NCBI GenBank assembly: GCA_036924285.1
Contig: JAYKYS010000005.1
Location: 28,928,001-28,992,000, forward strand
Origin: Asterella californica
Taxonomy: Eukaryota > Streptophyta > Marchantiopsida > Marchantiales > Aytoniaceae
Length of the DNA stretch: 64,000 nt
Reading direction: 5' to 3'
The notes under the pieces were generated by a model. The model made no database searches. It was not told where the DNA came from and saw only the letters and a program-made list of their open reading frames with translations. Shown here piece after piece: positions 898-38,012 of the stretch. The stretch's first letter is position 1; every line of letters begins with the position of its first letter. A program made the translations under genes and the position numbers.

Positions 898-1120
898 CTA
901 ATGTGTGGTGCCCACAATTTACATGATTCACGAATTTTTGAAATTTTTAAGATTAATAACTTGGTTGTATAACTGAAGAAGTGTTGTTACTTAAGATTAC
1001 GGCTTCCTTAGAAGGAAGATGATCTTACGATCTTTTTGTAATAAGAAGTTGACTTCTTCGGAAGACGACCGTCTTCCGGGAAGCGTCTTCTCGGTTGTGT
1101 CTTCCGAAGACGGAAGACGG

Positions 1121-3633: not shown

Positions 3634-4055
3634 ACGGCGAAAGACGGAAGACGGCAACCGTGGAAGCCTAACCACGTATTTCCAAGTAAAGAAGTAGGTG
3701 TACCCACCAGGTAACACCAAATAGGTTCGGTAGGTCAGGTAGATCATCTAGGTTGAGAACTCCTAACCTGCACGAGAAGATGCGAAGGAAGCGCATTAGC
3801 GCAGAACACTACCACTTCCTGCATCGAGGTTGCTTTGGCTTAGAAGATCGAATTGGAAGGTAATCGAGTTGAGTGAAGGCAACAGAGTGAAATTGAGTGG
3901 AGCCAGGATCAATTCACAGCTAGGAAGAAGACGAGGGCAAATCATTGAGAGTAGGAATCGCATCGAGCTGAAGGGGTCTTCTGGAGACTCCCGGAAGCAG
4001 ACATTGAAGGGCAACTGCGAGGAATCAGAGGAGGAACCTTTCGATTGAGGAGTGG

Positions 4056-4690
4056 TGTGGTGCCCACAAATTACAAGATTTCACGAATTTTTGAAATTTT
4101 TAAGAATAATAACTTGTTTGTATAACTGAAGAAGCGTTGTTACTTAAGATTACGGCTTCCTTAGAAGGAAGATGATCTTACGAGCTTTTTTGTAATAAGA
4201 AGTTGACTTCTTCGGAAGACGATCGCTTTCCGGGAAGCGTCTTCTCGGTTGTGTGTTCCAAAGACGGAAGACGGCGGAAGACGGAAGACGGAAGACACGT
4301 ATCTTCCAGAAGATGGCAACCGCAGAAGCTTCACCACGTAAGAAGTAGGTGCACCTACCAGGTAGCACCAAACAGGTTAGGTAGGTCGGGAGGGTCGAAA
4401 CCCCTAAACTGCAGAGAGAAGATGCGCAGGAAGCGCATTAGCACATTTCAGCTTCTCGCAACAAAGGCACATTTTGGTTAGAAGATCGATTCGAGGGTGA
4501 ACCTTGAGTGAGGAAGCAGCGAGGTGAAATTGAGAGAGGTCAGGATTGATTCGAAGCTAGAAGGAAAGTAAGGTCGAATTACTGAGAGCAGAAGCGTGTC
4601 GAGCTGAAGGAAGCTGTGAACTCCCGGAAGCTGACATTGGAGGACGGCTGAGTGGAATCGAAGGTGGAAGTCTTGATCGATTGAGGCGTA
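4056..4690. repeat. D-type leader repeat, unit 2
   Basis: Uninterrupted second copy of the unit described at 904-4055. It contains a run of GGAAGACGG repeats around 4260-4300. It directly precedes the D1 leader. It could be an LTR of family D because it begins with TG and lies just before a primer-site-like position, but it does not end in CA and no matching copy follows the D1 gene. Confidence 0.6.
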
Positions 4691-6041
4691 GTCAGGAGCT
4701 GACGGCAGAAGCAGCTTTGTGGGGTCGCATTGGAGCTGCAATCAGAGCCGGAAGCGCGCAGAAGATCGAAGACAGCTCGAGAAGCAGACAGAAGATAGTA
4801 GAGGTTCTTCCCATGTTCTCTTCTCTTCCCACCGCTTCTCGTCTTTTGTTTGGTATCCCCCGCGCTTCCCCGGTTGTTTGCAGGCAACCCGATCGATCAA
4901 TTCTCACCCCGGTTTTTCCTTTTGTGACATTGGGTGCAGAAGCGCTGCCCAATTTCCGTCAGACATCTTCTTGTTTCTTCCCGAGTTCAATTCGAGCTTT
5001 CCTACTCCTAGCCCTCAAATTGGAGAGCCCAGCTATCAATTTCCCTACCCTACCATCATTCTACTCTCGAAACGTTGAACAGAAGACGCTTCGGAAGATT
5101 GGAACATCTTCAGAAGACGCTTTGGAAGCCTGACTGTCTTCGGAAGTCGACTGTATACTATTCGTATCAAGAGTGGGTTTGCTTTGCTTTGGTGTTAAGA
5201 GAGGCTTGGTACGAATTCCGAGTGGCTTGGTGAGTTGTTTTGTTATTTCGAGAAGTTGGAAGTCGGGAACTAGGCCTGTGCCTCTCGGTCTTCCAAGCTT
5301 CTCAAATCCACATCTTCCTAGAGAGACTAGAAGACTGGAAGGGCTGGCAAAATGCGGGAGAAGACGTGAGGGTCCATTTTGGGTCTCTTCTGTTCGACCC
5401 ATAACAACTCATTCCTTCTTCTTCCCGAACTTAGGAGAGAGTCATGAGAAGTCTTGCTGGCAGAATCTGGAGATAATGATCGAGGGTCATGTCTTCCCAT
5501 CATGCAGCAAGCTTCTTCTGAGTGTGTATGAGAGGTGAGAAGTCGAAAGAACAGAGTATGAAGATTTCTTGTCTGTTGTGAGGTTAGATTGCGAGTCGGA
5601 AGCCGAAGACAGGTGAGACCAGTGAAGGGAAGCCTGACTTCGAGAGGTCTTCCGAGAAAGACATTGAATTGGAAGCTGTCCCGGGAGTCTTCCCAGAGGC
5701 CACTGTTACCGTAGGAGCCGCGATCATCTTCTGGAACTTGTTCATACGCTTTGCTTCTCGCACATTTTCCATCTTCTGTTAAGAAGTAGGATGTAATGCA
5801 AGGTGGGTTGTCTTCTTAGGAATCCATGCGAGGCCTTGCTTAGTTAGGATTGTTTAGATATAGCTCGGAAGACGAGAGCTATCTAGGAAGCACTGTTAGA
5901 ATCTCGGAAGACGGAGTAGCTGTCTTCTGGAAGACTAGTTTCGTCTTCTGAGAAGTAGAAGCTAGACTGTGGGCACTTGGGAAGGACTGAGCCTTCAGCT
6001 CACAGTAAGTGCGTGTGGCTTAGTGCAACAGATTTCCAAGT
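4691..6041 (+). other. D1 leader, non-coding, rich in GAAGAC/GTCTTC
   Basis: The 350 bp at 4691-5047 are repeated at 21105-21434 with moderate divergence, which suggests a leader shared by two D units. The rest has no match in the window. The hexamer GAAGAC and its complement occur repeatedly in both orientations (for example around 5080-5150 and 5860-5960) although nothing is coded. Several short open frames exist, but their reading frame is not kept in the 21-kb copy, so I do not call them genes. A GTAAGT (6005-6010) followed by a pyrimidine-poor CAG (6029-6031) just before the D1 start could be a small intron; this is speculative. Confidence 0.5.
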
Positions 6042-6541
6042 ATGTCGATGCATCCTCGAGGGTTGGTGTTACCCGCAGCAGAGTTGGCCGAGGTCAAACC
6101 CTTCCTCAAGGAGTTGGGTCTCGACTTCTTCCTGTGGGATTGGAACCTCGCCGACCAGGGTCTTCTGGAGGAGGTTTGGACAGCTTTACCGCCTCACAAC
6201 CGTGTACCTACGAAGGCAGGAGTAGCTCGAGGAAGACCATCTTCATGGACTGAAGATTGGTGGCACAAGGCCTTCCACAGCTCAAAATCCGAGGACCGAG
6301 GTTATTGGCTCGAGAAGAAGATCTTACCCAAGATCTCGAGTGAGTGGCATGTACCTGGAAGCACAACTTGTCTCTTCATGGAAGACAAGCAGGGAAGGAA
6401 CGAATGGAAGGTAGAATCTTACCGGGAGCCGAAGAAGCGACTTCTGACGAAGCTATTTCTGCATCTCTTTCCCAAGGCGAAAGCGCAGAAGACGAGGTAC
6501 CTGAGAGATCAGGACGTGGAGTTCCTGGAAGCAGTGTGCGC
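6042..6541 (+). pseudogene. D1 gene, first part: unrecognised repeat-borne protein, N-terminal domain
   Basis: Open frame starting ATG at 6042 (MSMHPRGLVLPAAELAEVKP). It encodes about 166 residues of a globular-looking domain with many Trp residues (FFLWDWNLADQGLLEEVW, WTEDWWHKAF, SEWHVPGSTTCLF). The frame is cut by the B2 insertion at 6542 and resumes in the same sense at 16287 (AEGVLVNLGAFFHVYV...). The joined N-terminal region loosely recalls the putative plant transposon protein domain that accompanies some plant Ty3 elements; I could not test this. No gag, protease or polymerase motif is present. The start was chosen because it is the first ATG of the long frame and follows the stop-rich leader. 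Confidence 0.6.
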
Positions 6542-7534
6542 TATCGAGGCGAGAGTTTCTTGGGAAGGGCGAACCTTCTAGCTGTGATACGATCGTGAAG
6601 AGGAGGACGAAAATCACACACGAAATACGGATCGCAAGAACCCACACCACCACGTTCTCGATCTGGCCAAGATAAAACACACGGCGTGCAAGTAGATCTT
6701 CAACTCCAGATCATGCAGATTGCAAAGCTCACGCTCAGTAACTCAGAATATCAGAAAATTGCTCCTGTGAAGCACCAGCGCGTTCACCTAGAAGCTTCCC
6801 GTTTTCTCTTCAGAAAAGTATGCGTACAAGTTGTAGGTCTCCTATCTACTCGATTCTGTTCTCTACTCTCAATCCCTCGATATCAAAACTCTGATCAGAC
6901 AGAAGTTCTCTTCAGACGTAACCTCTGTGTAAATCTTCTCTCCTCAGCTCTACTGTTTCTCTCTACTCGATAGCTCCTGCACGGTAAACTCTACACTGCT
7001 CGATGATCGACAAACTCCGATAATGCGATAATGCGATACTGTGACAATGATCTCAGAATTCTCTCTCACCGGAGTACACCCCTCTGGGTTTTCCTCCACC
7101 CTACGTAACCTTCAGTGTCACCTGGCAGGGGTAAAAGACGCCCTAAACAGATGGCAGCAGAAAAATAAATCACTGATAAAAAATCAACACGTAAGAAGAC
7201 TATTTCACTAAGCTTTGCAGGTTCATCTGTACGGACGGCCGCCGTCTTGGCTATACAGTCAGCATCTGCCACCTCCACCCGAAGTAACTCCACCACGACT
7301 ACCTCTGACCACCGGAATCACCTCGTTCTGACACGTGGAGCCCGAGTTATCATCATTGTCGTTTCCCGGCCCCCTTAAACTTCGAAGTGCCGTAAGTGTT
7401 TCCTCAGGTGTCAGTTTCACTTGATTTTTCGATCCAAGTGAATAGTATTTCGAACCCTACATTTTTCTACAAAAGAATTGGTACCGACTTGGAGTATCTT
7501 TGATGCCATCTCGCTACCCCAGGACTTAGAGAGC

Positions 7535-7792
7535 CGCAACCGAATTCGTACTAATTACCCCGCCAACCCGAAGGTGAGAGGTCCATTTTGAAACCCGGTG
7601 GTAATCTCCCTCTAGCATCCACACTAGGTGACCGCACTAGTGCAGGGGTAGACGGAGGCGTCCCGCAACCGAATTCGTACTAATTACCCCGCCAACCCGA
7701 AGGTGAGAGGTCCATTTTGAAACCCGGTGGTAATCTCCCTCTAGCATCCACACTAGGTGACTGCACTAGTGCAGGGGTAGACGGAGGCGTCC
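7535..7792. repeat. 129-bp tandem duplication present in only one B2 LTR
   Basis: Unit 7535-7663 (starting CGCAACCGAATTCG) is repeated at 7664-7792 with about one mismatch. The 5' LTR has a single unit at about 15538-15666. Confidence 0.9.
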
Positions 7793-7892
7793 CGCATTCA
7801 CGGTACGTTTAAGGGACATCTAGTGTCCCGCCCCTAGGCAACTTGGTGCCCCTCATGTTCCCCCGAAGGGGCCAGCCTACTCCAAGCCGGTT

Positions 7893-7967
7893 GTGAGTAT
7901 GAAGGGATTTGATCCGGAGACCTCCTCCCTACAAGTTTCTCAGCTACACCACGGAAGCTGATCTCAC
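7893..7967 (-). repeat. tRNA-like / SINE-derived segment in the B2 3' LTR
   Basis: On the minus strand 75 nt begin GTGAG and end CTCAC, which can pair. They contain an A-box-like TAGCTGAG and a B-box-like GATCAAATCC about 33 nt apart, as in Pol III promoters of tRNA-derived SINEs. The 3' flank contains CCTAGGGGCGGGA, also found in the SINE-like segment of the B4 LTR. It is present in both B2 LTRs, so it was acquired before this insertion. It is unlikely to be a working tRNA: the T arm is weak and there is no clear anticodon arm. Confidence 0.45.
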
Positions 7968-8412
7968 AACTGGTTTTGAAGACCAGTTTCTAAGCTAATA
8001 TGCTAGAAAGCTGCGGTATTTTGTCTTTCCTTTGCTAACACGAAGTGCCATAAATTTCTCTAAACATGCTCTTTTTGTACATTTCGAATTTTAAACAAAT
8101 ACTACATACCATAATCTACATGAGAAAAATCTAAAAAGTATTTTTCGAACTCACTCTGATTTATGGTAAATTTCCCGGTATCAAAAATCTTGTAGAATAA
8201 CTCCAAGTAACTTTTCGCCTGCAACTCCGTTTGCAACTTTTGAACATACCACGGTGATCAGCGCGACGAGACCTACGCCGTGCTGTTTTCAGATTTTCGA
8301 ATGGACACTTCCTCCAGAATCGACTTCTCTGAGGTCTTAGCTGCACTTAGAGAGACTAACTTCTAACCGAGAGGTGAATTATTCACTATGTGGAATAATT
8401 CACATCACGACA

Positions 8413-8424
8413 TCCACCCCCTCC
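8413..8424 (-). other. B2 polypurine tract
   Basis: In element sense GGAGGGGGTGGA lies directly before the 3' LTR (TGTCGTG). The identical tract precedes the 3' LTRs of B1 (36680-36691) and B3 (55729-55740). It is the expected primer for plus-strand DNA synthesis. Confidence 0.85.
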
Positions 8425-8458
8425 AAACCTGCACATCCTCTGGCATGTGCCAACTTCT

Positions 8459-9025
8459 TCATCCTTCTGTCTGCTCTTCATCATCATCGCTCTCGTCCGT
8501 CTCAACCTTTTCAGTAGTCGAGACGTCTTTATCTCTCGTCATCTTCTCAGACTCCAAAAAGTTGAACAAATCTACTGATCCTCCACGTTGTTTGAACAAC
8601 TTCACTCGCTTGCCGGCCACAGATAGTTTCAAAGGAGTACCATCTAACTCACGTAAACTATAAGTGGCATTCTCATAAACATCTAACACAACATAAGGCC
8701 CGAACCATCTTCGAGAGAACTTACGAAGTGTAGAATGCTGATTCTCCAGCGTGCTATCATACACCAGAACCCAAACACCAACACGTATTGGCTTTGGTCG
8801 TAGTCGATGAGTCTTGTCGAAACGCTCCTTGTTTCTAACTCGAGCCACCTTCAGCTTCTCTTGCGCCTCAGCAAGATCCTCCTCCCTTCGCTCCAACTGC
8901 CTAGTTCGTAAAGCAAGGAGTGAAGTATGATCTATATCATCTTCCCACGGTAGCGTAGCCCACGTAGGAAAGTCCTCCTCAGCAAGCATGATCGGTTTCT
9001 GCCCCAACATAAGCTCAACCGGCAT
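8459..9025 (-). pseudogene. B2 integrase C-terminal part
   Basis: Encodes about 188 residues that match the end of the B1 polyprotein at 36083-36645: a helical charged stretch (LERREEDLAEAQEKLKVARV), then the GPY/F-type module (RRWFGPYVVLDVYENATY) and an acidic tail (ESDDDEEQ). No chromodomain follows. It is separated from the integrase core by two in-frame TGA codons (9062-9064 and 9089-9091) that replace Trp codons present in B1 (EWPRLL and LWADRT). The acidic tail ends close to the polypurine tract. Confidence 0.85.
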
Positions 9026-9088
9026 ATAGCCAGTCGTGGTACAGTGTGTAGTTCTATCAGCTCATAAAGCAAATGGAAGTAGTCTCGG

Positions 9089-10516
9089 TCATTCTCTAGG
9101 CCTACCATCACATGCTTTTACTAAAGCGTGAACAATAGAAGGATGTCCTCGTTCACTCTTACCAATCCCTTCTGGATTCATGGCAGTAGTAAGCCGAAGC
9201 TTTACTCCATAACGAGCAAAGAACTCTTTCGCTTCTGCACCTCTCAACTCGCCCATATCTGCTCGTAGTCTTCCAACAGATCCATAACGACAGATAATAT
9301 CTTCCAGCACGAATCTACATATGTTCTCTGTAGTCTTCGTTCGTAGTGCTCGCCCCTCCACGTAGTTGGAGAGATCTTCCCGAGCTAACACCAAGTAGCG
9401 CATCCCCCACAGTCCCGGCGGCATCATCACAAGATCAAGGACCCACGAAAAATGAATACTAGGTGGGTAGGTAGGTACAAGTCCATCTCTGTAACGGACT
9501 TTAGAATAGAACTGGCAGTGCAGACACGACCCAACAAAATCCACTACGTCTTGATACAAACCCTTCCACCAGTATCGCTCCTTCATCTTCGTATATGTAG
9601 CCCAAACTCCACGGTGTCCAGCCCACAAGGTGTCATGGAACTCCTTAAGCAGATTCAGCTTTGTCGGTTGATCATCGACCACTCTAGTCAACATCCCATC
9701 TCTTCTCTTCGGGCGTTTCCACAGATAACCTTCACGGAGAAGGTAACCGTACGCTTTTCTCCTAATCTCCTTAAACTCTGTATCACTCCAGCCTTCTCGT
9801 CTGCAAAATGAACTCAGATAGTATCCGATATCGCGGAACTTTTCCGTGTAGAACTCCTCGTAGAACAGCAGTGGTTCCACGTCTGAAGTCTGCTGACCAA
9901 CTTGGCACCAAACGTCTCTCTTCTCTTCATCTTCGACTTCAGTAATCATCTCTTCTTCATCTATATAACGAGCCCTAGATAACATGTCTGCAACAGGATT
10001 ATCCTTTCCTGCTATATGCTTCAGCTCAGGGTTCATACTCCGGATATAAGCAATCCATCGTAGCATTGCTATGTCTGGACTATTACAGTTTGCTATCATA
10101 CCTAGCAAAGGTAAACAATCTGTTTCTACTATCACAAGTGCACCTATCAAGAACTCTCGGTCTACCTTCATAGCAGTAACAGCTCCCCACAACTCACGCT
10201 TCACTTGAGGATAGTTACGTTGTCTATCTGTTAAGATCCGAGCTCCAAACCTTGAAACAAACCGCACACCTTCTGCATCTTCTTGACCGACTGCCCATCC
10301 AATCGCCTTTGGACTCGTGTCAACAGTCAGTATGATAGGTCTTCCGCTCTCGTAGCTAAGTCTCCTTAGTACAGGTGGAGACTTCAGAATCTCCTTCAGC
10401 TGCTCCATCGTCTCGTGATGTTCTCGCCGCCAAGTAAACCTCTTTCCCTTCCTCAGAAGTGCATACAGAGGCTCGGCAATGTGTGCATAATGAGGAATAC
10501 TCACACGAAAGAACAC
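9089..10516 (-). pseudogene. B2 RNase H and integrase zinc-finger and core domains
   Basis: Reading in from the end of RT, it encodes the RT thumb/connection (ISIPHYAHIAEPLYALLRKG-like), RNase H (LTVDTSPKAIGWAVG, KRELWG, ETDCLPLL, NPVADMLSRA, holding the expected acidic residues), the integrase HHCC finger (H-x4-H in HDTLWAGH, C-x2-C in CLHC) and the core (VLDLVMMPPG; RADMGE; GKSERGH, a D-D-E arrangement). The B1 and B3 copies read RADRGE at the second Asp. A one-base insertion near 10525 puts this segment out of frame with RT. It ends at the TGA replacing the Trp of REW. Confidence 0.9.
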
Positions 10517-12056
10517 ACATAGCTCCTAAGAATCGTCGAACCTCAGTGATGTTGGTACAGTCTGCTATCCTTGCTATAGCATCTACCTTCTCTGGATTCG
10601 GTCGTCTTCCAAAAGTACCGCATAAGTGACCAACCACCACAATCTCTGACATTGCAAAACGAGATTTGGTACCTGACAGAGTAAGGTGTACCTCTTCCAA
10701 GCGCATCAGAATCTTCTCCACATCTCGGATGTGGTCTGCAACGAACTTTCTGCAACCATCAACAGTCATAGTTTCGTCCTTGTCCTCCACCGGACAGCCT
10801 TTCATGGGGATATCATCAAGAAATGGGATAGTAACCTCAGGTACAAACTCTCGTAACACCTTATGCATCGCGTTTTGCATATGAGCTACTGAGTTTGTCG
10901 CACCCTGAGGAAGAGTACACATCCGCATCAACCCCAAAGGTGTACGCATGGTAGTCAAGTCTCTACTCTCTAAAGCAAGCTGAAACTGATCATAACCTGA
11001 AAACAGATCTCCAATAGAATAGATGGATCTTCCAGCAAATGCCTCGGCTACTTCATCAACCACAGGTCCTGTTCCAACATTTCGTATCATGATGTTGTTG
11101 GCAGGCTGCAAGTCTTGGATGAAGCGTAAAGCTCCTGTCTTCTTAGGTACTGTGAACCATCGGCTAGAGTACGGAGCCATAGATGGTTCAAGAATACCCA
11201 TCCGCATTCTCTCCTTCAGTAACTCAATAACCTTCGGTAGCAAGGCACGAGGGACTGGAATCGGCTTCAAGTCCCAAGGTACGTGAGGAACAGTGAAGAT
11301 AACCATCGGAGCTATCACACTAGGATCCACACAACCAATCTCTCCAGCTGAGAAAGAAAATGCCTTACCATGGTTAATTATCATCTGCTCAAAAGCTCGT
11401 TTCTCCTCTTCAGTCAAGAAGCCACCCTCTCCTATCTGGAGCTGCTCGAGTGTCTCTTGAGTAAACTCGTGTCCTATCTGTTTAGGATCTCTCAGTACAG
11501 GCTCAGTGGCCGCTAACTCCATCTGCTGTCGTGAATCAACAGATAACTGGGTCGCCACTGGTTTCACCTTCTTCGCTACAGATTTGTATTTGGTGTGAAC
11601 CTCTGCTTCTGCACGAGAGCCACACCAGCAGATTGCATCCTTCCATCCACTCTCCAGTCTCGGATGAGGACGAGATTGCAAGCACGTGGCAATCTCCTCA
11701 TAGACCTTACGAGAGTGGATGGGGATCACCACCCTTCCTCCCATCTGCTCCATCAACCTATCTACATCATCCAGCCAACGAACAAAAGACTGTGCACCTA
11801 CTAACTCCTCGTAAACACCAGAAATCAGCTCACCTTCGTTCAGAACTCCTGTACAGCGCAGATTTTCTGCATACTTCTCCATCTGCCTTCTACTCTTCTC
11901 AGTTAGATCCTCTACACGCGTGAACTCACTCCAATCATCAGAACTAAAAGTCATCAAACCAGATTTCCAACTATGTACAGTGTAGCAGTTTTCAGAATCT
12001 TGAGCAACCTCTTCGTCAATCTCCTGTGATCCCACAGGCTGCTCAAGCGAGATCAT
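10500..12056 (-). pseudogene. B2 reverse transcriptase and upstream connector
   Basis: Frame 10356-12056; the useful part starts at about 12056 with ISLEQPVGSQEIDEEVAQ. A connector of about 230 residues leads into the RT: KPIPVPRALLPKVIELL, RFIQDLQPANN, GDLFSGYDQFQLALESRD, CTLPQGATNSVAHMQNA, and the catalytic IPFLDDIPMKG (FLDD in place of the usual YVDD/YIDD), then VVVGHLCGTFG. The motif set (DLQP, SGYDQ, PQGATNSVA, FLDD followed by KG) resembles the Ty3-like RTs known from basidiomycete fungi more than plant chromoviruses or Tat/Athila; that comparison is from memory. The frame is lost after RRFLGA. Confidence 0.9.
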
Positions 12057-12091
12057 AGTAGTAGCAGATCCATCACTCTTGGTATCCCGTC

Positions 12092-13453
12092 CTACAAGAG
12101 TGGTTTCAGAAAACCCTTGCTCCTACAGATAGGAGAATCTCTCAAAGTCTGTCTATTTCGTTCGTGGTTCGTACGAACGGTCAGAAACTGCACAGAACGT
12201 CTATCGTCTGGACTACGGATCCTAGCATAGTGAGATCCGTCATCCATCACCTTCGTCTCCATTCTAACTGTGGTGATATAAGGTTGACCAAGAATCACAG
12301 GATATGAAGGAGAAGATTGCACGAAGAAGTGCTGATCTACCTCCACATCACCCAGCTTCACTCTCACGTTGGGACAAGCGCCGTATAACTCACCCTTCTG
12401 GTTGTTTGCAGCTCTTAGCACCCAACCATGGTTCAGTTCGATAGGCCACTGTCCTCTCTCGTACACCTCCCGTGACATGATGTTGATCTCTGAACCGTGA
12501 TCAACTAACGCAGCAACAAGTTCAAGACTTCCGAGACGAACTCGTGTAGCCGTCGTAGCACGAGCCCAGTGTCTCTTCCTGAAGTCACTATCAGCAGTTG
12601 GACTCTCATCGCCAGCTTCATCATCATCGAATTCAGCAGTATTGGTACCAGCAACCAACGCTTCTTGCTGGTACTCTGTATCATCAACCTCCTGAAAATG
12701 CACCTTGCCGAACTCTGCATCATTCATAGAAGCTCCTATCACATCAATCATCTGACTTTCTACTTGCTCAGACATCACCTGTCTCTTCCGCTTGATGATG
12801 TCGATGATCAGCTCGTGAAACTCCCTCTTCGCAATACCAAGAACCTCCCGAAGAGAAAACTCGATTCGTGCGTCAAGTATTCTCTGCTCCAAGATGCTCT
12901 TGAGATCAGTTGAAGTTTCAATATCAGCTGCCAACTTGTAAGCCGGTCCTTTCCCCTTCTCTTGGGCAGTAAACCGTCTACCAGCAGTCGTTGGCTCCTG
13001 CTGAGATCTCTGCACGTCCTCCATCGGACTTGGTGCAGGTGGAGGAGCTGCAGAAGTAGAAGGGATGTCTTCAGGAGGAGCCGCTCGTCTCCTCGTGACC
13101 CTCCGTCTATCTCCAGTCTCCTCTGGAACTCTAGTATCAAGTTCAGAGGCTTCTCGCCGCCTCTTCTCTTCCACAGAAGCATCCTGCCAGTGAACGTGTC
13201 TATCCACGTCCAAGAATGCTTTGATAGACGCAGCATCAACAGGATCTCCCCACCCTGTGACCCTACGGATAGTCTCTGCTCCTCTCTTCAGTACTTCAGA
13301 AGGAACTTGAACAGGTTTCTTCTCAGTAGTTCTATCTAGCAACGTAGGACTAGAAGAAACTTCAATGTGACCGGCATATACATCAGGATTTACCGGTGGT
13401 GCCATCAATGCATGTACAGTTGCAGCAGCTGTAATCTGAGGTAGACTCCTCAT
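12092..13453 (-). pseudogene. B2 gag C-terminus and aspartic protease
   Basis: About 450 residues: a Pro/Ala- and Arg-rich linker (DRRRVTRRRAAPPEDIPSTS), a conserved helical block (SLREVLGIAKREFHELIID), an acidic stretch, and the protease with active-site motif ALVDHGSEINIMS and flap/ILGQPYIT region. The catalytic motif is D-H-G, where retropepsins normally have D-T/S-G; the same is true of B1's ancestor, B4 and presumably the family. It is out of frame with gag because of a one-base deletion near 13490 (compare CACCTTTCTTCTACTGG in B1). It ends at a stop (ICRSKGFLKPLL) before the RT frame. Confidence 0.85.
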
Positions 13454-13476
13454 GCCTCCTCGTCCAAACTGCGTGC

Positions 13477-14637
13477 TTAACGGCTCTCCAGTAGAAAAAG
13501 GTGTAGCCTACCGTTCTGGTAGCGAACCACACCATCTCGCAGGGCAGCCATGAGCTCTTGACAGTCCCCTCGGAAATGATCTTGACTGTCACACCAGATA
13601 CATCTACGAACAGGAGCACCTCCTGGACGTGCAGCAGCAGGCGCCGGTGGCTGCTCTCTCTGCAGACCAGCTAACTCCACCTTCAGTTCTCTCATCTGCC
13701 GAATCAAGTCTTCAATCTGGTTCTGCTGTCCATGGTTCTCTGCAGGTCTCTGAACCGGTGCCCTTTGTGCAGGAACTGACACCACTGGTATCAAAGGTAC
13801 TGCAGCCGGTACAACAAGTCTGGGAGCAGGAGCCGGAGGTTGCTGTACTTGAGGAGTAGTGCGAGGTTGAGCGGTCACTTCTGCAAGCGGACGTCCTCCC
13901 ACAGCCACTCTTCCACGCCTTTGTCTCGTCAATACAGCAACAGCATCCTCAACTCTCCTCCAATCAGTAGTAACTCCTCCTTCAGCTGATCGGTCAGCCA
14001 ACATAAAGCATAACCGATCTGCCGTAGCATCATCGGTAGCTTGCAGGAAAAGCTCGGTTTTCCTAGCATCTAAGATTATCCTCTCAAGAGTTGAGAGTTG
14101 TCGGTATCTCCGATCAAACTCTCTCAGCATCTCATTCAGGTTCATCATACGACCAGGTTGCTGCTCAACCCAGTCCAAAAACGTTCTTCTAGTGACTCTC
14201 TCTGAGTCTTCTTCGAGAAACTCCTCTCGAAGAGATCGTTCGAAACTCATCCAGACACCTAGATTTCTTCTCTGTACATCCCTAACCTGGTTCCGCAACT
14301 CAGGGATTACAGCTAACTCGAAACTCCCTATCATCTCAGCATCAATAACTCTAACTAGTTCCATCTCTCCTCTGTATTCACGCAGATATCTAGAAATATC
14401 TCTACCTTCAAATCTACCGCATCTATTCACAATTGCTTGCAAAGCCTTGGTAGACTTCAACTCACCCCCTCCAATGATCGGATGTTGTTGGACCAGGGCC
14501 GCAAGTGTCTTCAGAATCTCAACCGTATCCAGACCAGGTGCAGATGTCGCTGTAGCCGCTGGTGCTACAGAAGGAGCTGCAGTAGACGTAGATGCAGCAA
14601 GCGTAGAAGTAGCAGCAGCAGCACTCTTGCGATCCAT
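13477..14637 (-). pseudogene. B2 gag (capsid and zinc knuckle)
   Basis: ATG at 14637 (MDRKSAAAATSTLAA). After an Ala/Thr/Ser-rich start comes a capsid-like helical region (GRFEGRDISRYLREYRGEM; DSERVTRRTFLDWVEQQPG; LERIILDARKTELFLQA; LCFMLADRSAEGGVTTDW), a Pro-rich linker, the helix QNQIEDLIRQMRELKVELAG and a zinc knuckle CIWCDSQDHFRGDC (C-x2-C-x4-H-x4-C). A one-base deletion near 13490 replaces the normal continuation with RLHLFLLESR and a stop. The primer site lies 49 bp upstream of the ATG. Confidence 0.9.
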
Positions 14638-14685
14638 CTCTTCTCCTTGTAGTGAACTCAACCTTCTCAATCAATCACCCCAAGA

Positions 14686-14706
14686 GCTCTCAGTGGAAGC
14701 ACCAGA
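14686..14706 (-). other. B2 primer binding site block
   Basis: In element sense TCTGGTGCTTCCACTGAGAGC. The same 21 bases follow the 5' LTRs of B1 and B4, and B3 has one change. In B2 five extra bases (TACAA) lie between LTR end and block. TGG at position 3 suits pairing with a tRNA CCA end. Similar TGGTGCTTNCATTGAGAGC-like blocks occur after LTRs of plant Ty3 elements, but I cannot name the tRNA. Confidence 0.7.
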
Positions 14707-14711
14707 TTGTA

Positions 14712-16286
14712 TGTCGAGGCCAGAGTTTCCTGGGAAGGGCGAACCTTCTAGCTGTGATACGATCGTGAAGAGGAGGACGAAAATCACACACGAAATACGG
14801 ATCGCAAGAACTCACACCACCACGTTCTCGATCTGGCCAAGATAAAACACACGGCGTGCAAGTAGATCTTCAACTCCAGATCATGCAGATTGCAAAGCTC
14901 ACGCTCAGTAACTCAGAATATCAGAAAACTGCTCCTGTGAAGCACCAGCGCGTTCACCTAGAAGCTTCCCGTTTTCTCTTCAGAAAAGTATGCGTACAAG
15001 TTGTAGGTCTCCTATCTACTCGATTCTGTTCTCTACTCTCAATCCCTCGATATCAAAACTCTGATCAGACAGAAGTTCTCTTCAGACGTAACCTCTGTGT
15101 AAATCTTCTCTCCTCAGCTCTACTGTTTCTCTCTACTCGATAGCTCCTGCACGGTAAACTCTACACTGCTCGATGATCGACAAACTCCGATAATGCGATA
15201 ATGCGATACTGTGACAATGATCTCAGAATTCTCTCTCACCGGAGTACACCCCTCTGGGTTTTCCTCCACCCTACGTAACCTTCAGTGTCACCTGGCAGGG
15301 GTAAAAGACGCCCTAAACAGATGGCAGTAGAAAAATAAATCACTGATAAAAAATCAACACGTAAGAAGACTATTTCACTAAGCTTTGCAGGTTTCTAAGT
15401 GTTTCCTCAGGTGTCAGTTTCACTTGATTTTTCGACCCAAGTGAATAGTATTTCGAACCCTACATTTTTCTACAAAAGAATTGGTACCGACTTGGAGTAT
15501 CTTTGATGCCATCTCGCTACCCCAGGACTTAGAGAGCCGCAACCGAATTCGTACTAATTACCCCGTCAACCCGAAGGTGAGAGGTCCATTTTGAAACCCG
15601 GTGGTAATCTCCCTCTAGCATCCACACTAGGTGACTGCACTAGTGCAGGGGTAGACGGAGGCGTCCCGCATTCACGGTATGTTTAAGGGACATCTAGTGT
15701 CCCGCCCCTAGGCAACTTGGTGCCCCTCATGTTCCCCCGAAGGGGCCAGCCTACTCCAAGCCGGTTGTGAGTCTGAAGGGATTTGATCCGGAGACCTCCT
15801 CCCTACAAGTTTCTCAGCTACACCACGGAAGCTGATCTCACAACTGGTTTTGAAGACCAGTTTCTAAGCTAATATGCTAGAAAGCTGCGGTATTTCGTCT
15901 TTCCTTTGCTAACACGAAGTGCCATAAATTTCTCTAAACATGCTCTTTTTGTACATTTCGAATTTTAAACAAATACTACATACCATAATCTACATGAGAA
16001 AAATCTAAAAAGTATTTTTCGAACTCACTCTGATTTATGGTAAATTTCCCGGTATCAAAAATCTTGTAGAATAACTCCAAGTAACTTTTCGCCTGCAACT
16101 CCGTTTGCAACTTTTGAACATACCACGGTGATCAGCGCGACGAGACCTACGCCGTGGTGTTTTCAGATTTTCGAATGGACACTTCCTCCAGAATCGACTT
16201 CTCTGAGGTCTTAGCTGCACTTAGAGAGACTAACTTCTAACCGAGAGGTGAATTATTCACTATGTGGAATAATTCACATCACGACA
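14712..16286 (-). repeat. B2 5' LTR (1575 bp)
   Basis: Plus-strand ends TGTCGAGG and ATCACGACA. It matches 6542-8412 apart from the two indels listed there. It contains a second copy of the tRNA-like segment at 15767-15841 (minus). The D1 reading frame resumes directly after it. Confidence 0.9.
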
Positions 16287-17305
16287 TCGCGGAAGGAGTG
16301 CTCGTCAACTTGGGCGCGTTCTTCCACGTTTATGTACAGACGGAGTTGGTGTACTTAGGTACCCCGACAAGAGGACACTTGACACCTTTCCTCTGCTACC
16401 TGTACGTAGCCATGGGGGATCTCACGGAAGATCAGTTGGTGAAGTATGAGTCAACAGGGCAGCATGAGACGAAGGAGGAGACCTCGGAAGAAGACGATCG
16501 AGCAGCAGCCGTAACTCCCCCTCCCACTCTGATGCCGCAGCTGAGGCTCGGCACTCATCAGAAGACGCTTCTGGTGAGAGAAGACGACTCCAGTGGGTCG
16601 GAAGACGCCACGCCTCCGAGGAAGATGGGTCCTATAAGTGTACCTAGGAAGACCACCTCCCTCATTCATTCGGGATCGGAGTCTGACTCGCAGGAAGAGC
16701 CGCTGAGTACCCGACCGGAGCAGAAGACCGCTTCTGCCACACCAGGGAGTCTTCCGAAGACTCCAGAAGACGAAGGATGGATGGATACTCCTACTGCGAT
16801 GCGAGGAAGCGCAGTAAAGAGGACCGCTTCGACCATGGGGAGAGATCTTCCACCCCGGAAGATGAGAAGAGTAGCTTCTTCCCGTGTGCAGAAGCTGAAG
16901 ACCATAGTGGTGGAAGAGGCATCCTTGCCTCTAGAAGACAAGGTCGACACCTCCGATCGGATTGTGGAGATGAACTTGTCTTCCGCAGGAAGAAGACTGG
17001 AAGAGTTTAGTGCCTTCTTCCACTCAGAGATCCAGCCAGCTATGAAGTTGTTGGAGAAGAGAGCGAGGGCTCAGGAGAAGCTCAAGATACAGCCTGGATT
17101 CGGTCTGCGCACCTTGATGCGTCAGGAAGAAGACCAGAAGAAGGCAGAAGCGCTGGAAGTTAGTCTCCGCACCACGGAGAAGCTCGCAGCAAGGTACAAG
17201 ACGGAAGCAGCCGCTTCTGCCAAGGAGTTGACCCAACTGAGGAAGAGCAACCAGGAGTTGCAGGCGCGTTTACAGCAGCGTGACCAAGAGGTTCTCCGAG
17301 TGCGG
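16287..17305 (+). pseudogene. D1 gene, middle part: end of N-terminal domain, charged linker, coiled coil
   Basis: Continues the frame broken at 6541. The first about 45 residues (AEGVLVNLGAFFHVYVQTE, GHLTPFLCYLYVAMGDLTED) complete the N-terminal domain. Next comes a low-complexity Ser/Thr/Glu/Pro linker with basic patches (PPRKMGP, KRTASTMG, LPPRKMRRVASSR) that could serve as nuclear localisation signals. From about 17035 a long heptad-rich coiled coil starts (KLLEKRARAQEKLKIQ; LEVSLRTTEKLAARYK; LTQLRKSNQELQARLQQ). The frame is cut at 17305 by a solo LTR. Most of it is conserved in D2 (57300-58190). No enzyme motif is visible; a structural or nucleic-acid-binding accessory protein is possible. 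Confidence 0.7.
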
Positions 17306-18679
17306 TGTCGTGCCATTTGGCGGCTACATGCTTGACTTCTACTCCGACGCTTAGGTTTTAGTAGTTCTAGAAGTTAGCTCATATTACTTCTAGTCCTTTA
17401 TGTATATGTTTGACACCTTTGCATACGGTGTTAATACTATTTTGAGTCCTAGTAGACTGATAGTATGTTAGTTATCTTGTTCAAGCATTTGTGCGCTTGT
17501 GCAAGTGACTTCTTACTTGTCTATGACGTTCAATGTACATAACTTAGGGTTTCCATGCTGATAGGGGTTTGAGCTCATGGGTTGTACTTACTTGTCGCCC
17601 ATGCACGCTTTCTAGCTGATTTAAGTTATTTTTCGGGGCTACGTGTCGTTTTAGGTAGTTTAAGTATTACGCTGGCACTCTAGGGGGCTTGACGTGGTAG
17701 CCTATGAGTGTAGATAAGTTACCAGGTAGTTTAAGGCACAAAAGGACAGTCAAGTGGAGCTATGAACTCCCATTGGTCCATTTTTGTCTTTTGTAAAACT
17801 CTAAGTTTAGAAATAGAGCTCTAGAGGAGAGTTCGAGCAATTGGTGAGGGATCTTCGAAATCTGAAAGCACAAGAAGAGAGAGCTCGTCGTGCCAAGCTC
17901 TATCAGTGAAATTTTTGCTCGATTTGGATCAATAAACAAGGAGTTATGCCCAATTGAAGTTCGGATTGTGCCAAAACTGAGTCACTTTTGTTGATTTTGG
18001 GGTTTTCAGTGCCAATTGCAGCAGAATTGAGGAGATCACTTCAAGACTTCGTGGTTGCGTTCACTGTCAGGAGGGCTACGACTGTCCAAAAAGTTTTGAA
18101 TCATTTGAGTAATTGAGTAATTCAGGGCGGCCGCTGAAGCAGAGGGGGTCTGAAAAGCTCTTAATCTAGAGCAGCGACTTCAGAGAAGGAGATCTGGAGT
18201 TTTGTGTACATTCAGGAGTCCCAACTTCACAGGGATGTTCAGCATCCTGTAGACTTCAAATACTGTGAGAAGATTTGAAATTCATCGAGCCAATTCTCTG
18301 ATCTATGTCTGAATAGCTGTCTAGGTACCAGAAATTGCCATAATTCTCTTATTCAGAACTTTTCTGTCAACATCTCGGTGCTAGAATTCAATCTCAGGCT
18401 GAAACTTCGTGTGTGTGTTCAGTAGTGCCTCATTTACATGTAGGGGAAGTTTAGAAGTCTAAACCTTCATAGTTTTCCTCTCTTTGAGTGTCAAAGTTCA
18501 CCGCTTAAGCCTATTACTACCAGTGAGACCTAAATTTCGCTTTTTGAGCATATCACAGGATCCTACACTCCTGTGTGAGTGTTTATAGCTCCTGTTGTGA
18601 CCTGAAAGCCAACCTCTTGAGTAAACAACCACAGCCAGAAGCCCGACGCTTTCCTAGGTAGACGGATCACATTCCGACA
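17306..18679 (+). mobile_element. Solo LTR, family B-related (1374 bp)
   Basis: Begins TGTCGTG, ends CCGACA, flanked by the 4-bp duplicate GCGG (17302-17305 and 18680-18683). The first 250 bp or so are unlike B1, but from about 17560 (GGGTTTGAGCTCATGGGTTG) onward it matches the B1 and B3 LTRs in the same order. Its 3' end is short, lacking the CTCTCAACTCGACA tail. Removing it and one duplicate restores the D1 frame seen in D2 at about 58190. Confidence 0.9.
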
Positions 18680-18683
18680 GCGG

Positions 18684-19474
18684 GGGAAGATCACCGCCTT
18701 CGCAGAGAAGAAGACGACATGAAAGACGCAGCGGGAAGCCGCAGAAGCGCGAGTTGCAGCCGAGAAGATGCAGCGGGAAGCAGCAGAAGCTCGTGCGCAG
18801 GAGATGCTAGCACAGTCGGTGGAAGCGCTTCGGAAGAAGTTCAACTTCACCGCGGGTAGGAAGTTGCTTACCTTGGCTAGAGAATGGGACGATGAGTCCA
18901 AGGTGATGTTGGTAGAGTGCAAGGAGAATATGTTCTGGTACTTGGATAGGCAGATAGAGGGGGTGAAGACACTCTATGGACTTCCCTCGACTTCGCCACC
19001 GGTAAGTACATCTTCCCAAACCTTAGTACCATCGATCAGTGCTGACATGGAGAAGGAGGAGGTCGACCTCGCTGTGCACTTGGTAGTGATACCGTTGGAA
19101 GCCGAGAAGACTCCGGAAGAAGTCCCGGAAGACAAGAAGAAGAACCGTCTTCCCAGGTATTCCGCGTGGAGGAAGCGACTTCCTCGGACCCCTATGAGGC
19201 CGTCATGGTCCCTAGTACCGAACTAATGCTCCAGAAGAGCGAGGAAGCACCAGTCGACTCCGCTTCCCAGAAGACGCTTCCGTCTTCCGAAGTCGAAGCA
19301 GAAGCTAAGGAAGAAGCAGCAGCAGCGACAGCAGGGCCAGCGAAGAACGATGAGGAGGAAGCCACCTCAGTGCTATCCGAGGTGTTCGCAGGGCTTCCTA
19401 GCTTATCAGAAGCCGTGTTAGGAGCTCCGGTAGGAGCAGATCAAGAAGAGATTGCCTCCGAGCAATCAGAGTAG
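18684..19474 (+). pseudogene. D1 gene, last part: coiled coil and acidic tail
   Basis: Resumes the D1 frame (GKITAFAEKKTT), then meets TGA at 18720-18722 where D2 has TGG. After the stop it continues with alanine-rich heptads (QREAAEARVAAEKMQREAAEARAQEMLAQS), a conserved segment (LRKKFNFTAGRKLLTLAREW; MFWYLDRQIEGVKTLYGLP) and an acidic tail. Near 19160 the matching frame moves by one (YSAWRKRLP versus VEEATSSDPYEAV), and the tail in the new frame is open to 19474. D2 shows the same switch at the same place after TCTTCYCAG, so it may reflect an intron boundary or an old frameshift rather than recent decay. Confidence 0.65.
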
Positions 19475-21434
19475 ATAGTAACCACAACCGACGTTGACAT
19501 TTCTAAACTTAGTAGGACCGAACATGCTATCTTAAGGGTGGCAGTTTTTCAGTGTAAAATTAGTTAGGATACCATGTGGTAACATAGGTAGCGTAGGAAC
19601 AGCAAAATAGATGGCTAAAACCAGAAAAGGGAAACAGTTTGCATGTGGAGTGGCAGCCTTCTGACAGCGCCCATCTCTCCCTGGTGGTCGTCTCCTCTGT
19701 TTTCTCGTGGTAGATGGCATAAGTAGGATCAAAGAGTAGGAAATCTAGTTCTTCACACACACAAACATTTTACGGTGTAGACTCACGATACATTAGACGA
19801 AGTGTACACATTTGAGGGGCGCACTAAGTACGTTGTTGTGTACTTGCGCACACACACTACACTAGATGTTAGAGACATACGAATAGATTGGGATTATACC
19901 GGAAGGGTCTGCATGCTCGTTACCAGCAGTGGTTCGAAGATATAGATAGAGGTAGTGGACAGTTTAGGAACAGAGAACGGCATCCTCGTGCAGTCCTGTT
20001 GGCTAGACTGGTGTGTCGAGGAGTAGGAGCAGGAAGTAGAGGGAGTGAGCTTCCCAATGCCAATGTGACTTCTTCTCGGGGAATGGATTGTTGATTTGAG
20101 TGCAGAAGCTTTGTCCATGTCTTCTGGGTGGTGGATTTTCTTGGGTTCACTCTCGATTGTGCATGAGAAGCGTTCTTCTTGAGTGGTGGTGACTGTCACC
20201 AGTTGTGCAGATTCGCACTTGGCTCGTCTAGTAGAGCACTTCGGATCTACGTATGGACGGTCTTGTGGGTAAAGGATCCCAGAAGACAAAGTAGTCGGAG
20301 CAGCGAGAGAAGAAAAAAGAAGCCTTCTTCTCACAGCAGAAGACGACATCCTCAAGTAGAAGACGGTGCAACTGTACGCACGTTTGTTGTCTTCCTCCCC
20401 AAACTATTACAAGCAGGGATGGCTTGTTAGTCAGGATCCGGACTAGAAGCCTATCGGAATCTTAATTTCTCCTTTTTATCTTGTTTTCTCTTGTTTGGAT
20501 TTTCCCATCTTTCCCATCTTCTTACCTTCTTCTAGTGAGCTTCCGAGACTTCTATTGAGCTTCCGTGAAGGTGAATGTCATTGTAGTGCTGCAGGAAGAC
20601 CATTTCCGTAGGTAGAAGCCTAGGAAGGTTACAGGGGGCATACACCTTATGATTAATCTAACCCGTTGGAATGTGAGAGTGAGTAAGTTATAACAGCCGT
20701 TGTTAGTCGACTTCTGCGAAGCAGGAGCAGTCTTCTGGTGGTGTGAGAAGCCGAGTTGAACCCCCAGAAGCCGAGAATTGCTTCGGGAAGACGGTACTGA
20801 GAAGACCGAAAGAAGTGACCTGGAAGCAGGAAGCGTCTTCCCGAGCTTCTCTGTGAATAGTTGTGTGATATTTTAGTTAGTAGTTGTTTGTTTAGGTCTA
20901 GAGCACCTTTTGGTGAGTCTGGAAGACGCGTGGTTTTGTGAGAAGACGGGATTTCTAGACAAAACCCGTGTGTTTGTGTGTTTGAACAGATCTTAGAACT
21001 TAGAGCAGCATTACTTGTGCAAATCCTCTGTGAGAACGATATCTTGTATACTAAATGAGCAAAAGGAGTAATCCTGCGACACTACAAGTGGCGAGACATT
21101 GGCAGGCAGCAGCTTAGTGGGGTCGCATTGGAGCTGGGGTCGAAGTCGTAAGTGCGCAAAAGACTGAAGAAGACCGGGAAGAAGACATAAGACTGTAGAG
21201 GTTCTTCCCATGTTCTCTTTCCTTCTCATTGCTTCTTGCCTTTTGTTTCGTATCCCCCGCGCTTCCGCAGTTGTTTATAGGCAACCCGATCGATTTATTC
21301 CCTCCCCATGTTTTTCCTTCTGAGACATTGGGTGCGGAAGCGCTGCCCAAATTCCGACAGCCATCTTCTTGCTTCTTCCCGAGTGCAATTCGAGCTTCCC
21401 TGCCCATGCCCTCAAATTGGAGATCCCAGTCCGT
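19475..21434 (+). other. D1 3' region and second leader-like segment; no gene seen
   Basis: Bases 19475-19835 match the D2 tail (58965-59306), including the unusual CATAAGTAGG/TATAAGTAGG stretch followed by AAGAGTAGG. A purine run then TGGCAG (19539) could mark the start of a 3' LTR, and GACACTACA followed by AGTGGCGAGAC near 21090 could be an LTR end plus primer site; both are weak. Bases 21105-21434 repeat the D1 leader 4691-5047. The stretch 19836-21104 has no match in the window and no credible ORF; it is again rich in GAAGAC. B1 cuts in at 21435. Confidence 0.4.
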
Positions 21435-22761
21435 TGTCGTGATGTGAATCATTTTACATTGTAAATAATTCACCTCTCTATCAAGCGTTAGTCTCTCTGA
21501 GTGAAGTTAGGACCTCAGAGAAGTCGACACTAGAGGTTGTTATATATTTTGAGTCTTAGTAGGTTGATTACCATGTAGATGGAGTTAAGCTCATGGGTTG
21601 TAATTACATGTCGCCCATGCATGCTTACTAGCGAGGTTAGGTTATCTTTCGGAATTACGTGTCGTTTTACATGTCTTCGCATGTAGTTTAGGGTCTATGC
21701 TGGCACTTTAGGAGCTTGACGTGGTAGCCTATAAGCAAATTCAAGTCACCACGTGGTTTGGGACACAAAAGGACAGGGGAGTGAAGCTATGAACTCCCAT
21801 TGGTCCAATTTTGTCTTTAGTGTACCGCTAAACTTAGTAGTAGGGGTCTTAAGAGGAGTTCGAGCATTTGGAGAAAAATCTTCGAAATCTAAGAGCACAG
21901 GGAGATAGGGTTCGTCGTGCCAAGCACTGTCAGCGAAATTTTTGATCGATTTGGAGCAATAAAGAAGGAGTTATGGCTGATTGAAGTTCGATTTGTGCCA
22001 GAATTGCATCACTTCTGTTGATTTTGGGGTTTTCGGTGTCAATCGCAGTAGATTTGAGAAAATCGCTTCAAACCTTCGAGGTCTCGTTCATTGGCAGCAG
22101 GGCTACGACTGTCCCCAAATTTTCATGTCAATTGAAATTGTGAGTAATTCAGGGCGACCGCTGAAGCAGAGGGGGTCCGAAAAGCTCTCAATCTAGAGCA
22201 TCAACTTCAGAGAGTGAGATCTGGAGTTCTGTGTACAATCAGGAGGCCCAACTTCACAGGGGTGTTCAGCAAGCTGTGTACTGCAAATCCTGTAAGAATC
22301 TTTGAAAGTGATCGAGCCAATTCTCTGTTCTAGGTCGAAATAGCTGTCTGGGTATCAGAAATTGCCATAATTTCTCTGCTCAGAACATTTCTGTCCATAT
22401 CTCGACACTCTGATTTGATCTCAAGCTGAAACTTCGTGTGTATGGTCAGTAGGGCCTCATTTACATGTAGAAGGAGTTCTGAAGTCTGAACCATCGTATG
22501 TTTCTGATTCTGGACCGTTGAAGTTCGCTGTCTGACCTTATTACTGCTAGTCTGATCTGATCTTCGCTTCCTGAACATACTGGAGGGTCCGTTCGACCTG
22601 AGTGAGTGTCTATAGTGCCCTTTATGACCTGAACCCTACCTCTGTATAGTAAGCAACCATAGCTTGAAGCCCAACGCTTCCCTGAGTAGACTAAACACAG
22701 CCTTCAAGATCTATCACAGCCAGAAGGTTCCGCCCTTCCTAGGAAAACTCTCAACTCGACA
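21435..22761 (+). repeat. B1 5' LTR (1327 bp)
   Basis: Starts TGTCGTGATGTGAATCATTT with an imperfect terminal stem-loop (GTGAATCATTTTAC against GTAAATAATTCAC). TTATATATTTTGAG near 21540 is the best TATA-like stretch, but its role is uncertain. Ends CTCTCAACTCGACA directly before the primer block. Confidence 0.9.
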
Positions 22762-36691: not shown

Positions 36692-38012
36692 TGTCGTGAT
36701 GTGAATCATTTTACATTGTAAATAATTCACCCCTCTGTCAAGCGTTAGTCTCTGAAGTTAGGACCTCAGAGAAGTCGACACTAGAGGTTGTTATATATTT
36801 TGAGTCTTAGTAGGTTGATAACCATGTAGATGGAGTTAAGCTCATGGGTTGTAATTACATGTCGCCCATGCATGCTTCCTAGCGAGGTTAGGTTATCTTT
36901 CGGAATTACGTGTCGTTTTACATGTCTTCGCATGTAGTTTAGGGTCTATGCTGGCAATTTAGGAGCTTGACGTGGTAGCCTATAAGCAAATTCAAGTCAC
37001 CACGTGGTTTGGGACACAAAAGGACAGGGGAGTGAAGCTATGAACTCCCATTGGTCCAATTTTGTCTTTAGTGTACCGCTAAACTTAGTAGTAGGGGTCT
37101 TAAGTGGAGTTCGAGCATTTGGAGAAAAATCTTCGAAATCTAAGAGCACAGGGAGATAGGGTTCGTCGTGCCAAGCACTGTCAGCGAAATTTTTGATCGA
37201 TTTGGAGCAATAAAGAAGGAGTTATGGCTGATTGAAGTTCGATTTGTGCCAGAATTGCAGCACTTCTGTTGATTTTGGGGTTTTCGGTGTCAATCGCAGT
37301 AGATTTGAGAAAATCGCTTCAAACCTTCGAGGTCTCGTTCATTGGCAGCAGGGCTACGACTGTCCCCAAATTTTCATGTCAATTGAAATTGTGAGTAATT
37401 CAGGGCGACCGCTGAAGCAGAGGGGGTCCGAAAAGCTCTCAATCTAGAGCATCAACTTCAGAGAGTGAGATCTGGAGTTCTGTGTACAATCAGGAGGCCC
37501 AACTTCACAGGGGTGTTCAGCAAGCTGTGTACTGCAAATCCTGTAAGAATCTTTGAAAGTGATCGAGCCAATTCTCTGTTCTAGGTCGAAATAGCTGTCT
37601 GGGTATCAGAAATTGCCATAATTTCTCTGCTCAGAACATTTCTGTCCATATCTCGACACTCTGATTTGATCTCAAGCTAAACCTTCGTATGTATGGTCAG
37701 TAGGGCCTCATTTACATGTAGAAGGAGTTCTGAAGTCTGAACCATCGTATGTTTCTGATTCTGGACTGTTGAAGTTCGCTGTCTGACCTTATTACTGCTA
37801 GTCTGATCTGATCTTCGCTTCCTGAACATACTGGAGGGTCCATTCGACCTGAGTGAGTGTCTATAGTGCCCTTTATGACCTGAACCCTACCTCTGTATAG
37901 TAAGCAACCACAGCTTGAAGCCCAACGCTTCCCTGAGTAGACTAAACACAGCCTTCAAGATCTATCACAGCCAGAAGGTTCCGCCCTTCCCAGGAAAACT
38001 CTCAACTCGACA
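36692..38012 (+). repeat. B1 3' LTR (1321 bp)
   Basis: Preceded by polypurine tract GGAGGGGGTGGA (36680-36691). Matches 21435-22761 closely; lacks 6 bp near the start (TCTCTGAAGTT against TCTCTCTGAGTGAAGTT). Confidence 0.9.

Follow-up and report, generated by a model that had tools for sequence, protein, structure and literature searches.

The 64,000-nucleotide stretch analysed here, which we call the window (Asterella californica, GenBank assembly GCA_036924285.1, contig JAYKYS010000005.1, positions 28,928,001 to 28,992,000, forward strand), is packed with nested long terminal repeat (LTR) elements and contains copies of a gene family, D. We found that D reads in sense orientation within the ~5.9-kb LTR of Ty3-type elements that form a high-copy family equipped with gag and pol, and that the window copy D1 is a solo LTR. 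An earlier sequence-only reading of the window had described two copies, D1 and D2. Both are present where it placed them, but D2 lacks the N-terminal part (it starts at 57286, adjoining the LTR and leader of another Ty3 family), and a third D-family copy, the fragment D0 into which D1 is inserted, had not been listed. Likewise, the proposed D1 join of 6042-6541, 16287-17305 and 18684-19474 does consist of coding pieces, but the third lies in two frames with a change near 19131. D1 and D2 are 86.7% identical over 911 bp and 81.4% identical over 1,016 bp (pairwise comparison), and D2 possibly belongs to D0. The D-family features and their insertions are listed below, with open reading frame abbreviated as ORF.

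904 to 1120, plus strand: D0, first 217 bp of another D-family LTR
3647 to 4055, plus strand: D0 continued, up to the D1 insertion point; 71% identical to D1 4309-4692
4051 to 4055, no strand: D1 5' target-site duplicate AGTGG
4056 to 21086, plus strand: D1, one D-family LTR (solo LTR) with two nested insertions; ends TGTGGTGCC...CACTACA; AGTGG on both sides; collinear with the units of copies c2, c6 and c8 (below)
6042 to 6541, plus strand: D1 ORF piece 1, the N-terminal part rich in Trp; identity 86-90% with the majority of the 149 other scored copies in the genome
6544 to 16288, minus strand: nested Ty3 element with its own LTRs (6544-8414 and 14714-16288, ~99% identical), inside the D1 ORF; reverse transcriptase, RNase H and integrase domains
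about 16289 to 17307, plus strand: D1 ORF piece 2, end of the N-terminal domain, Ser/Glu linker and start of the coil
17308 to 18680, plus strand: nested LTR of another family, inside the D1 ORF; resembles the LTRs at 21585-22699, 36836-37950 and 55879-56994; D2 is continuous across the same place
18681 to 19474, plus strand: D1 ORF piece 3, coil, RKKFNFTAG block and acidic tail; frame change near 19131
21087 to 21091, no strand: D1 3' target-site duplicate AGTGG
21087 to 21429, plus strand: D0 continued after D1, the target-site duplicate and then a match to D1 4704-5032 (84%)
57286 to 59302, plus strand: D2, a D-LTR fragment that begins inside the ORF and extends beyond its stop

We searched the genome (516.7 Mb in 773 contigs) with the first 166 residues of D and scored 150 of 8,295 first-look candidates. 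All 150 matched the query, namely D1 itself and 149 others at 84-90% identity, a recurrence well above chance. Ten copies (c1-c10), picked for long open frames, were fetched with 10 kb on each side; a D frame of 770-772 residues is open in four of them (c1-c4) and the frames of the other six end at 635-734 residues. Pairwise comparison revealed a shared unit with sharp ends, which extends about 2 kb upstream and 1.6 kb downstream of the D ORF and has a length of 5,863 bp in c1, 5,939 bp in c2, 5,947 bp in c6 and 5,987 bp in c8. The unit is rearranged in c4 (4,733 bp) and c10 (5,502 bp): c4 and c3 lack ~1.2 and ~0.8 kb before the ORF, and c10 lacks part of the ORF itself. The copied unit therefore exceeds the gene, as shared leader and tail sequences had led the earlier reading to state, and in the window it spans 4056 to 21086.

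Several features identify this unit as an LTR. Its termini are TGTGGTGC...CACTACA, that is TG...CA (c4 ends in CACGACA, and the left end of c1 is damaged), and 5-bp target-site duplications (TSDs) are exact in five of the six testable copies (c2 TGAAC, c4 CCTCC, c8 GTCTT, c10 AGGAG and D1 AGTGG), while four of five positions agree in c6; c3, c5, c7 and c9 lack one unit end and so give no reading. Copies elsewhere in the genome with complete flanks and target duplicates, which the sequence-only reading had proposed to look for, thus exist. No terminal direct repeats were found within the unit in the three copies tested (c2, c6 and c8). From 2,177 first-look candidates and 40 scored places we fetched 20 3' unit ends: six of these, together with c1, continue into one common leader carrying a site like TGGCGCCGCTGCCGG, and the remaining 14 have no common flank. 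The site presumably resembles the complement of a plant tRNA-Asp, with one mismatch. The junction of LTR end and primer site occurs 488 times in the genome (256 + 232, allowing up to two mismatches), compared with zero for a reversed control. In one of the six (L029), the LTR end is followed by 53 bp of leader with the primer site and then by a new LTR start; this is either an element almost without an inner region or a recombinant.

Beyond the leader lies gag (Retrotrans_gag, E = 2.1e-8 in c1 and 2.2e-8 in element E1). The inner region of E1 also has Pfam matches to zf-CCHC (2.5e-6), RVT_1 (4.6e-22), RNase H (4.7e-31) and rve (1.5e-8), with reverse transcriptase (RT) and RNase H ahead of integrase as in Ty3; aspartic protease gave only a marginal match below the cut-off (Asp_protease_2, E = 0.1), and two integrase pieces from the C-terminal end (62 and 82 residues) gave no chromodomain match. 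Between the integrase end and the next TGTGGTGC, directly before it, lies a polypurine-like tract, GTGAGGGTGGGCGTA. Neither E1 nor a second element, E2, is a clean full element: both carry nested insertions, and the 5' LTR of E2 matches only over its last 0.7 kb. A further element (C419), read from two fetched junction pieces (L055 and L058) that leave the outer ends of both LTRs outside, has D in both LTRs, 12.5 kb apart and 97.0% identical over 1,000 bp without gaps; its two D copies have a common stop at codon 174 and one private stop each (codons 250 and 73). Among the best 120 of 5,911 matches to the D-family RT, the best is 70% identical over 99% of the query, and the closest named relatives are from liverworts: Riccia sorocarpa (72%, 88% of query) and Marchantia polymorpha (71%, 66% of query), with 56% for Calypogeia fissa and 44-47% for named flowering-plant matches. 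These relatives make a liverwort the probable host.

Because of the termini, the TSDs, the primer-site junction, the inner gag-pol and the presence of D in both C419 LTRs, we regard as solid that D lies inside the LTR of a gag- and pol-bearing family and that D1 is a solo LTR, in agreement with the earlier suggestion that D belongs to an LTR retroelement. Three other origins were rejected. A DNA transposon is disfavoured by the 5-bp TSDs, primer site, gag and RT. The earlier suggestion of a non-autonomous element carrying only an accessory gene fails, since the unit has no terminal direct repeats of its own in the three copies tested, abuts the primer site and gag, and is the LTR of a family holding gag, zinc knuckles, RT, RNase H and integrase. 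Its other suggestion, an amplified host gene, found no support given the LTR-type ends, TSDs and primer-site junction, although the gene itself could have come from a host. The layout would accordingly be LTR with D, tRNA-Asp-like primer site, gag, pol, polypurine-like tract and LTR with D. With the gene in the LTR, a full element holds D twice, and every solo LTR that recombination produces could serve as a D gene on its own. Two copies, c2 and c4, are such solo LTRs: both are flanked by TSDs and keep D open over its full length, c4 without the ~1.2 kb before the ORF.

The protein encoded by open copy c1 has the Trp-rich N terminus previously described (11 Trp in 215 residues), whereas other parts of that description hold only partly. 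The supposedly long heptad coiled coil shows some periodicity at residues 456-520 (reached by 29 of 1,000 shuffles), but it is modest and weakens over 456-570 (231 of 1,000), and the patches likened to nuclear localisation signals correspond to three basic runs of three or more residues (at 131, 342 and 553). Calculated charge is +8.5 for the basic coil-and-block region and -29 for the acidic tail. In D1, D2, c5, c6, c7 and c9 the tail lies in a different frame from the coil, and at the site of this change c5, c6, c7 and c9 lack 19 bp of c1 (22 versus 41 bp). The 19-bp difference sets the frame of the acidic tail, and each version is common to several copies.

Database searches returned no convincing relative of D. 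With E values up to 10 allowed, Pfam matched neither the N-terminal and middle pieces of D1 nor the first 220 residues of c1, and whole c1 matched only TMCO5 (E = 0.048) and Leu_zip (E = 2.4), both on the coil and at noise level. The plant mobile domain and PF20167, suggested as checks by the sequence-only reading, gave no Pfam match to D beyond coil noise, nor did TRP28 (PF04195) or Athila ORF-1. A sequence search of solved structures returned geminin coils only (best E = 0.57). Protein searches yielded 84 candidates for the N-terminal piece, none at E up to 10, and 7,997 scored candidates for c1, none at E up to 1.

D is under purifying selection. Comparing c1-c6 and c8 with c7 and c9 gives 14 between-subfamily pairs, in which omega (the ratio of nonsynonymous to synonymous rates) was 0.18-0.22 at a synonymous divergence (dS) of 0.39-0.56. 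Regional values for four pairs fell to 0.02-0.17 in alignment columns 1-120 and 0.05-0.15 in columns 541-600, and codon positions 1, 2 and 3 differed by 0.10-0.12, 0.07-0.10 and 0.21-0.27, respectively, in four between-subfamily comparisons. Omega was 0.31 for c7 with c9, and 0.30 and 0.29 for c10 with c7 and c9. Copies L002-L008, which have stops and frame changes, are outside the quoted 0.18-0.22 range and gave higher values: against c7 and c9, 0.28-0.31 for L008 and 0.40-0.61 for the other six, and 0.35-0.45 for L006 against c1-c6, c8 and c10. While picking open frames biases the sample towards coding-like copies, this alone is probably not enough to produce omega so low.

Alignment gaps are few over the greater part of the ORF (0-2%), rise to 2-12% towards its end, and amount to 8-13% in the preceding 600 bp and 14-43% immediately downstream; since non-coding 3' bins 2850-3600 also have only 0-3%, a low gap content does not set the ORF apart. 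Between subfamilies, four-fold sites differ by 0.29-0.31 and the non-coding flanks by only 0.08-0.12 (c1, c2, c6, c7 and c9; rows with the c4 5' flank, at 0.46-0.48, were set aside for the ~1.2 kb missing there). This roughly threefold excess of divergence at four-fold sites means that the non-coding LTR flanks are either constrained or recombined.

A second property of the family is the word GAAGAC/GTCTTC, which is enriched and selectively kept across the element. It occurs 77-78 times per LTR (c1, c2 and c6) versus 6.2-6.6 expected from dinucleotide shuffles, a 12-fold excess, and no hexamer of the non-coding LTR is more strongly enriched in any of the three copies analysed (c6, 47 versus 4.1 expected; D1, 35 versus 4.0; c7, 31 versus 3.2). 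Four D ORFs contain it 30-35 times versus 11.0-13.5 expected from synonymous-codon shuffles, a slice of gag 16 times versus 7.0 and RT 8 times versus 2.0, counts reached by 0 of 300 shuffles in each case. Other window elements have little or none of it (five stretches, 0 to 5 versus 1.1 to 4.6 expected), and in codon-shuffle controls the observed count was reached by 37 of 300 shuffles for a copia element and 88 of 300 for another Ty3 element. Spacing is irregular and both orientations are present, near-palindromes TCTTC(N0-2)GAAGA number nine per LTR versus 0.0-0.1 expected, and c6 carries a doubled ~23-bp motif-bearing unit immediately upstream of the D start codon. Relatives of the word that are rich in GA are likewise enriched.

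All 22 directed comparisons showed higher retention of the word than of other hexamers. Pooled retention was 81% (rank 3 of 217), compared with 62% for the other hexamers without CpG, and by orientation, over five alignment groups, 86 of 108 for GTCTTC and 188 of 231 for GAAGAC. Relative to trinucleotide-context expectation, the word changed at a rate of 0.59 in non-coding LTR (31 versus 52.6), 0.48 in the D ORF (17 versus 35.4) and 0.38 in gag-pol (4 versus 10.6). This context-corrected ratio is fairer than the flank control (3.4% versus 10.4%), which overstates the motif effect, and the alignments behind both retention tests share sequences and hence are not independent.

We tentatively favour a reading, which we would put a little below even odds, in which D is an LTR-encoded accessory protein and most likely a sequence-specific regulator of its own family that reads GAAGAC/GTCTTC and acts in trans, either against silencing or as an activator. 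D would be translated from LTR transcripts; its conserved Trp-rich domain would read GAAGAC, the basic coil-and-block region and partial heptads could allow pairing on inverted words, and the acidic tail might recruit other factors. The family would probably benefit because its copies evade silencing or are activated in trans. Several observations weigh against this. No DNA-binding domain was detectable in D in the Pfam searches, and structure prediction for 6042-6539 gave no confident fold (mean predicted local distance difference test score, pLDDT, 36.8). The D frame is broken in the window copies and in six of the ten fetched copies, even though the latter were picked for long frames. D was found in one family only, which makes its link with the word a single coincidence in evolutionary terms. 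One Ty3 pol in the window, from a relative of the D family (RT 50% identical), has a mild excess of the word (5 versus 1.9, reached by 7 of 300 shuffles) and of its core (45 versus 22.8). Finally, the word is dense in coding DNA as well, unlike the targets of VANC proteins.

Nearly as likely is that D acts elsewhere, for example in RNA packaging, particle assembly, nuclear import or integration targeting, and that the word is a separate cis signal for, say, a host factor, as proposed for Sirevirus LTR palindromes. Selection on D and the occurrence of the word in coding and non-coding DNA alike suit this explanation, and in the parts of the literature we draw on plant Ty3 extra ORFs have no proven function (PMC6317226, PMC11963269); it requires, however, two independent novelties in one family, and a word retained in both orientations speaks for double-stranded DNA over RNA. 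That D is a functionless chance passenger, and the word what remains of ancient simple repeats, would be consistent with the rearranged copies (c3, c4 and c10) and the enriched GA-rich relatives, but we consider this unlikely in view of omega of 0.18-0.22 over the dS between subfamilies, a two- to threefold greater difference at third than at second codon positions, and a word that is irregularly spaced, present in both orientations and changing below its context-expected rate. Plant LTR elements can capture genes, and the lack of any homologue in the protein and Pfam searches leaves room for an unsampled host origin of D. A host gene captured into the LTR, or an amplified one, nevertheless seems improbable: all 149 other scored genome matches fall in the family at 84-90% identity (remoter copies would have escaped scoring), the unit has LTR-type ends, TSDs and a primer-site junction, and selection acts between element subfamilies.

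Plant Ty3 elements with extra ORFs, to which the sequence-only reading had compared D, proved the right comparison; here and below we rely on parts of the published descriptions. Non-chromovirus Ty3/gypsy elements of plants have LTRs of up to ~5 kb, primers that include tRNA-Asp, and extra ORFs placed before or after the polyprotein (Neumann 2019, PMC6317226). The D family resembles them in its Ty3 gag-pol, very long LTRs, large size, non-Met primer and extra ORF without an established role (theirs mostly belong to no known family), whereas its ORF lies inside the LTR rather than 5' or 3' of the polyprotein. Retand elements, described from eudicots and Liliopsida only, likewise have an accessory ORF of unknown function proposed to be a regulator, but theirs is antisense, encodes a TRP28 domain and lies between pol and the 3' LTR, while D is sense, within the LTR and without a Pfam match (PMC11963269). 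Retrosat2, known from grasses only and compared by description, shares an extra ORF and LTRs of >3 kb in a Ty3 element, yet its ORF0 precedes gag-pol (PMC3485330). A protein gene inside an LTR is found in the mouse mammary tumour virus (sag), an animal retrovirus in which the gene is located in U3 and the protein is unrelated (PMC9412291). We found no plant ORF inside an LTR in titles and abstract starts of the open-licence literature, which is weak evidence of absence; the novelty would lie in this location within a plant Ty3 LTR together with an element-wide kept word.

The word itself has two parallels. In Sireviruses (Ty1/copia), a short, often palindromic word with a CGG-CCG core is repeated 8-32 times per element in the LTR and the region before the extra gene and is absent from other elements, whereas the family here is Ty3 and has the word over the whole element, with 77-78 occurrences per LTR (PMC2829016). 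VANC proteins of VANDAL DNA transposons, for which binding and demethylation have been demonstrated, share with D the combination of an element-encoded protein and a short word that abounds in its own family and is scarce in other elements, and their word-bearing units are also duplicated in tandem, as in c6; their word is mainly non-coding and in one orientation, unlike the present LTR element, in which coding DNA and both orientations are included and binding by D is conjectural (PMC5735166, PMC10398659). It is possible, though we think it doubtful, that the D family is a liverwort LTR-element counterpart of VANC, with an LTR-borne anti-silencing or activator gene, solo LTRs as protein sources and a target word spread element-wide, coding DNA included. 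If so, sequence-specific anti-silencing could reach beyond DNA transposons.

A gene borne by the LTR is copied with every LTR and outlives solo-LTR formation, which usually strips an element of its coding capacity, so the family could retain a trans-acting helper long after its full copies are gone. The role of plant Ty3 extra ORFs is unknown; since the kept GAAGAC word offers a concrete and cheap binding test for D, that question becomes directly testable, and we put forward the regulatory role of D as a testable proposal.

The window also contains repeats beyond the D family. A 2.4-2.5-kb repeat at 1121-3646, which interrupts D0, recurs at 49436-51842 (94-95% identical) and has inner 180-bp tandem units at 1786-1964 and 1962-2141. 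In the nested minus-strand Ty3 family, a DUF4100 match lies between the gag-like and RT ORFs (12095-13453; E = 2.3e-7, weak but above the cut-off). A tandem array of ~70-bp units at 60381-60852 gives rise to overlapping repetitive ORFs.

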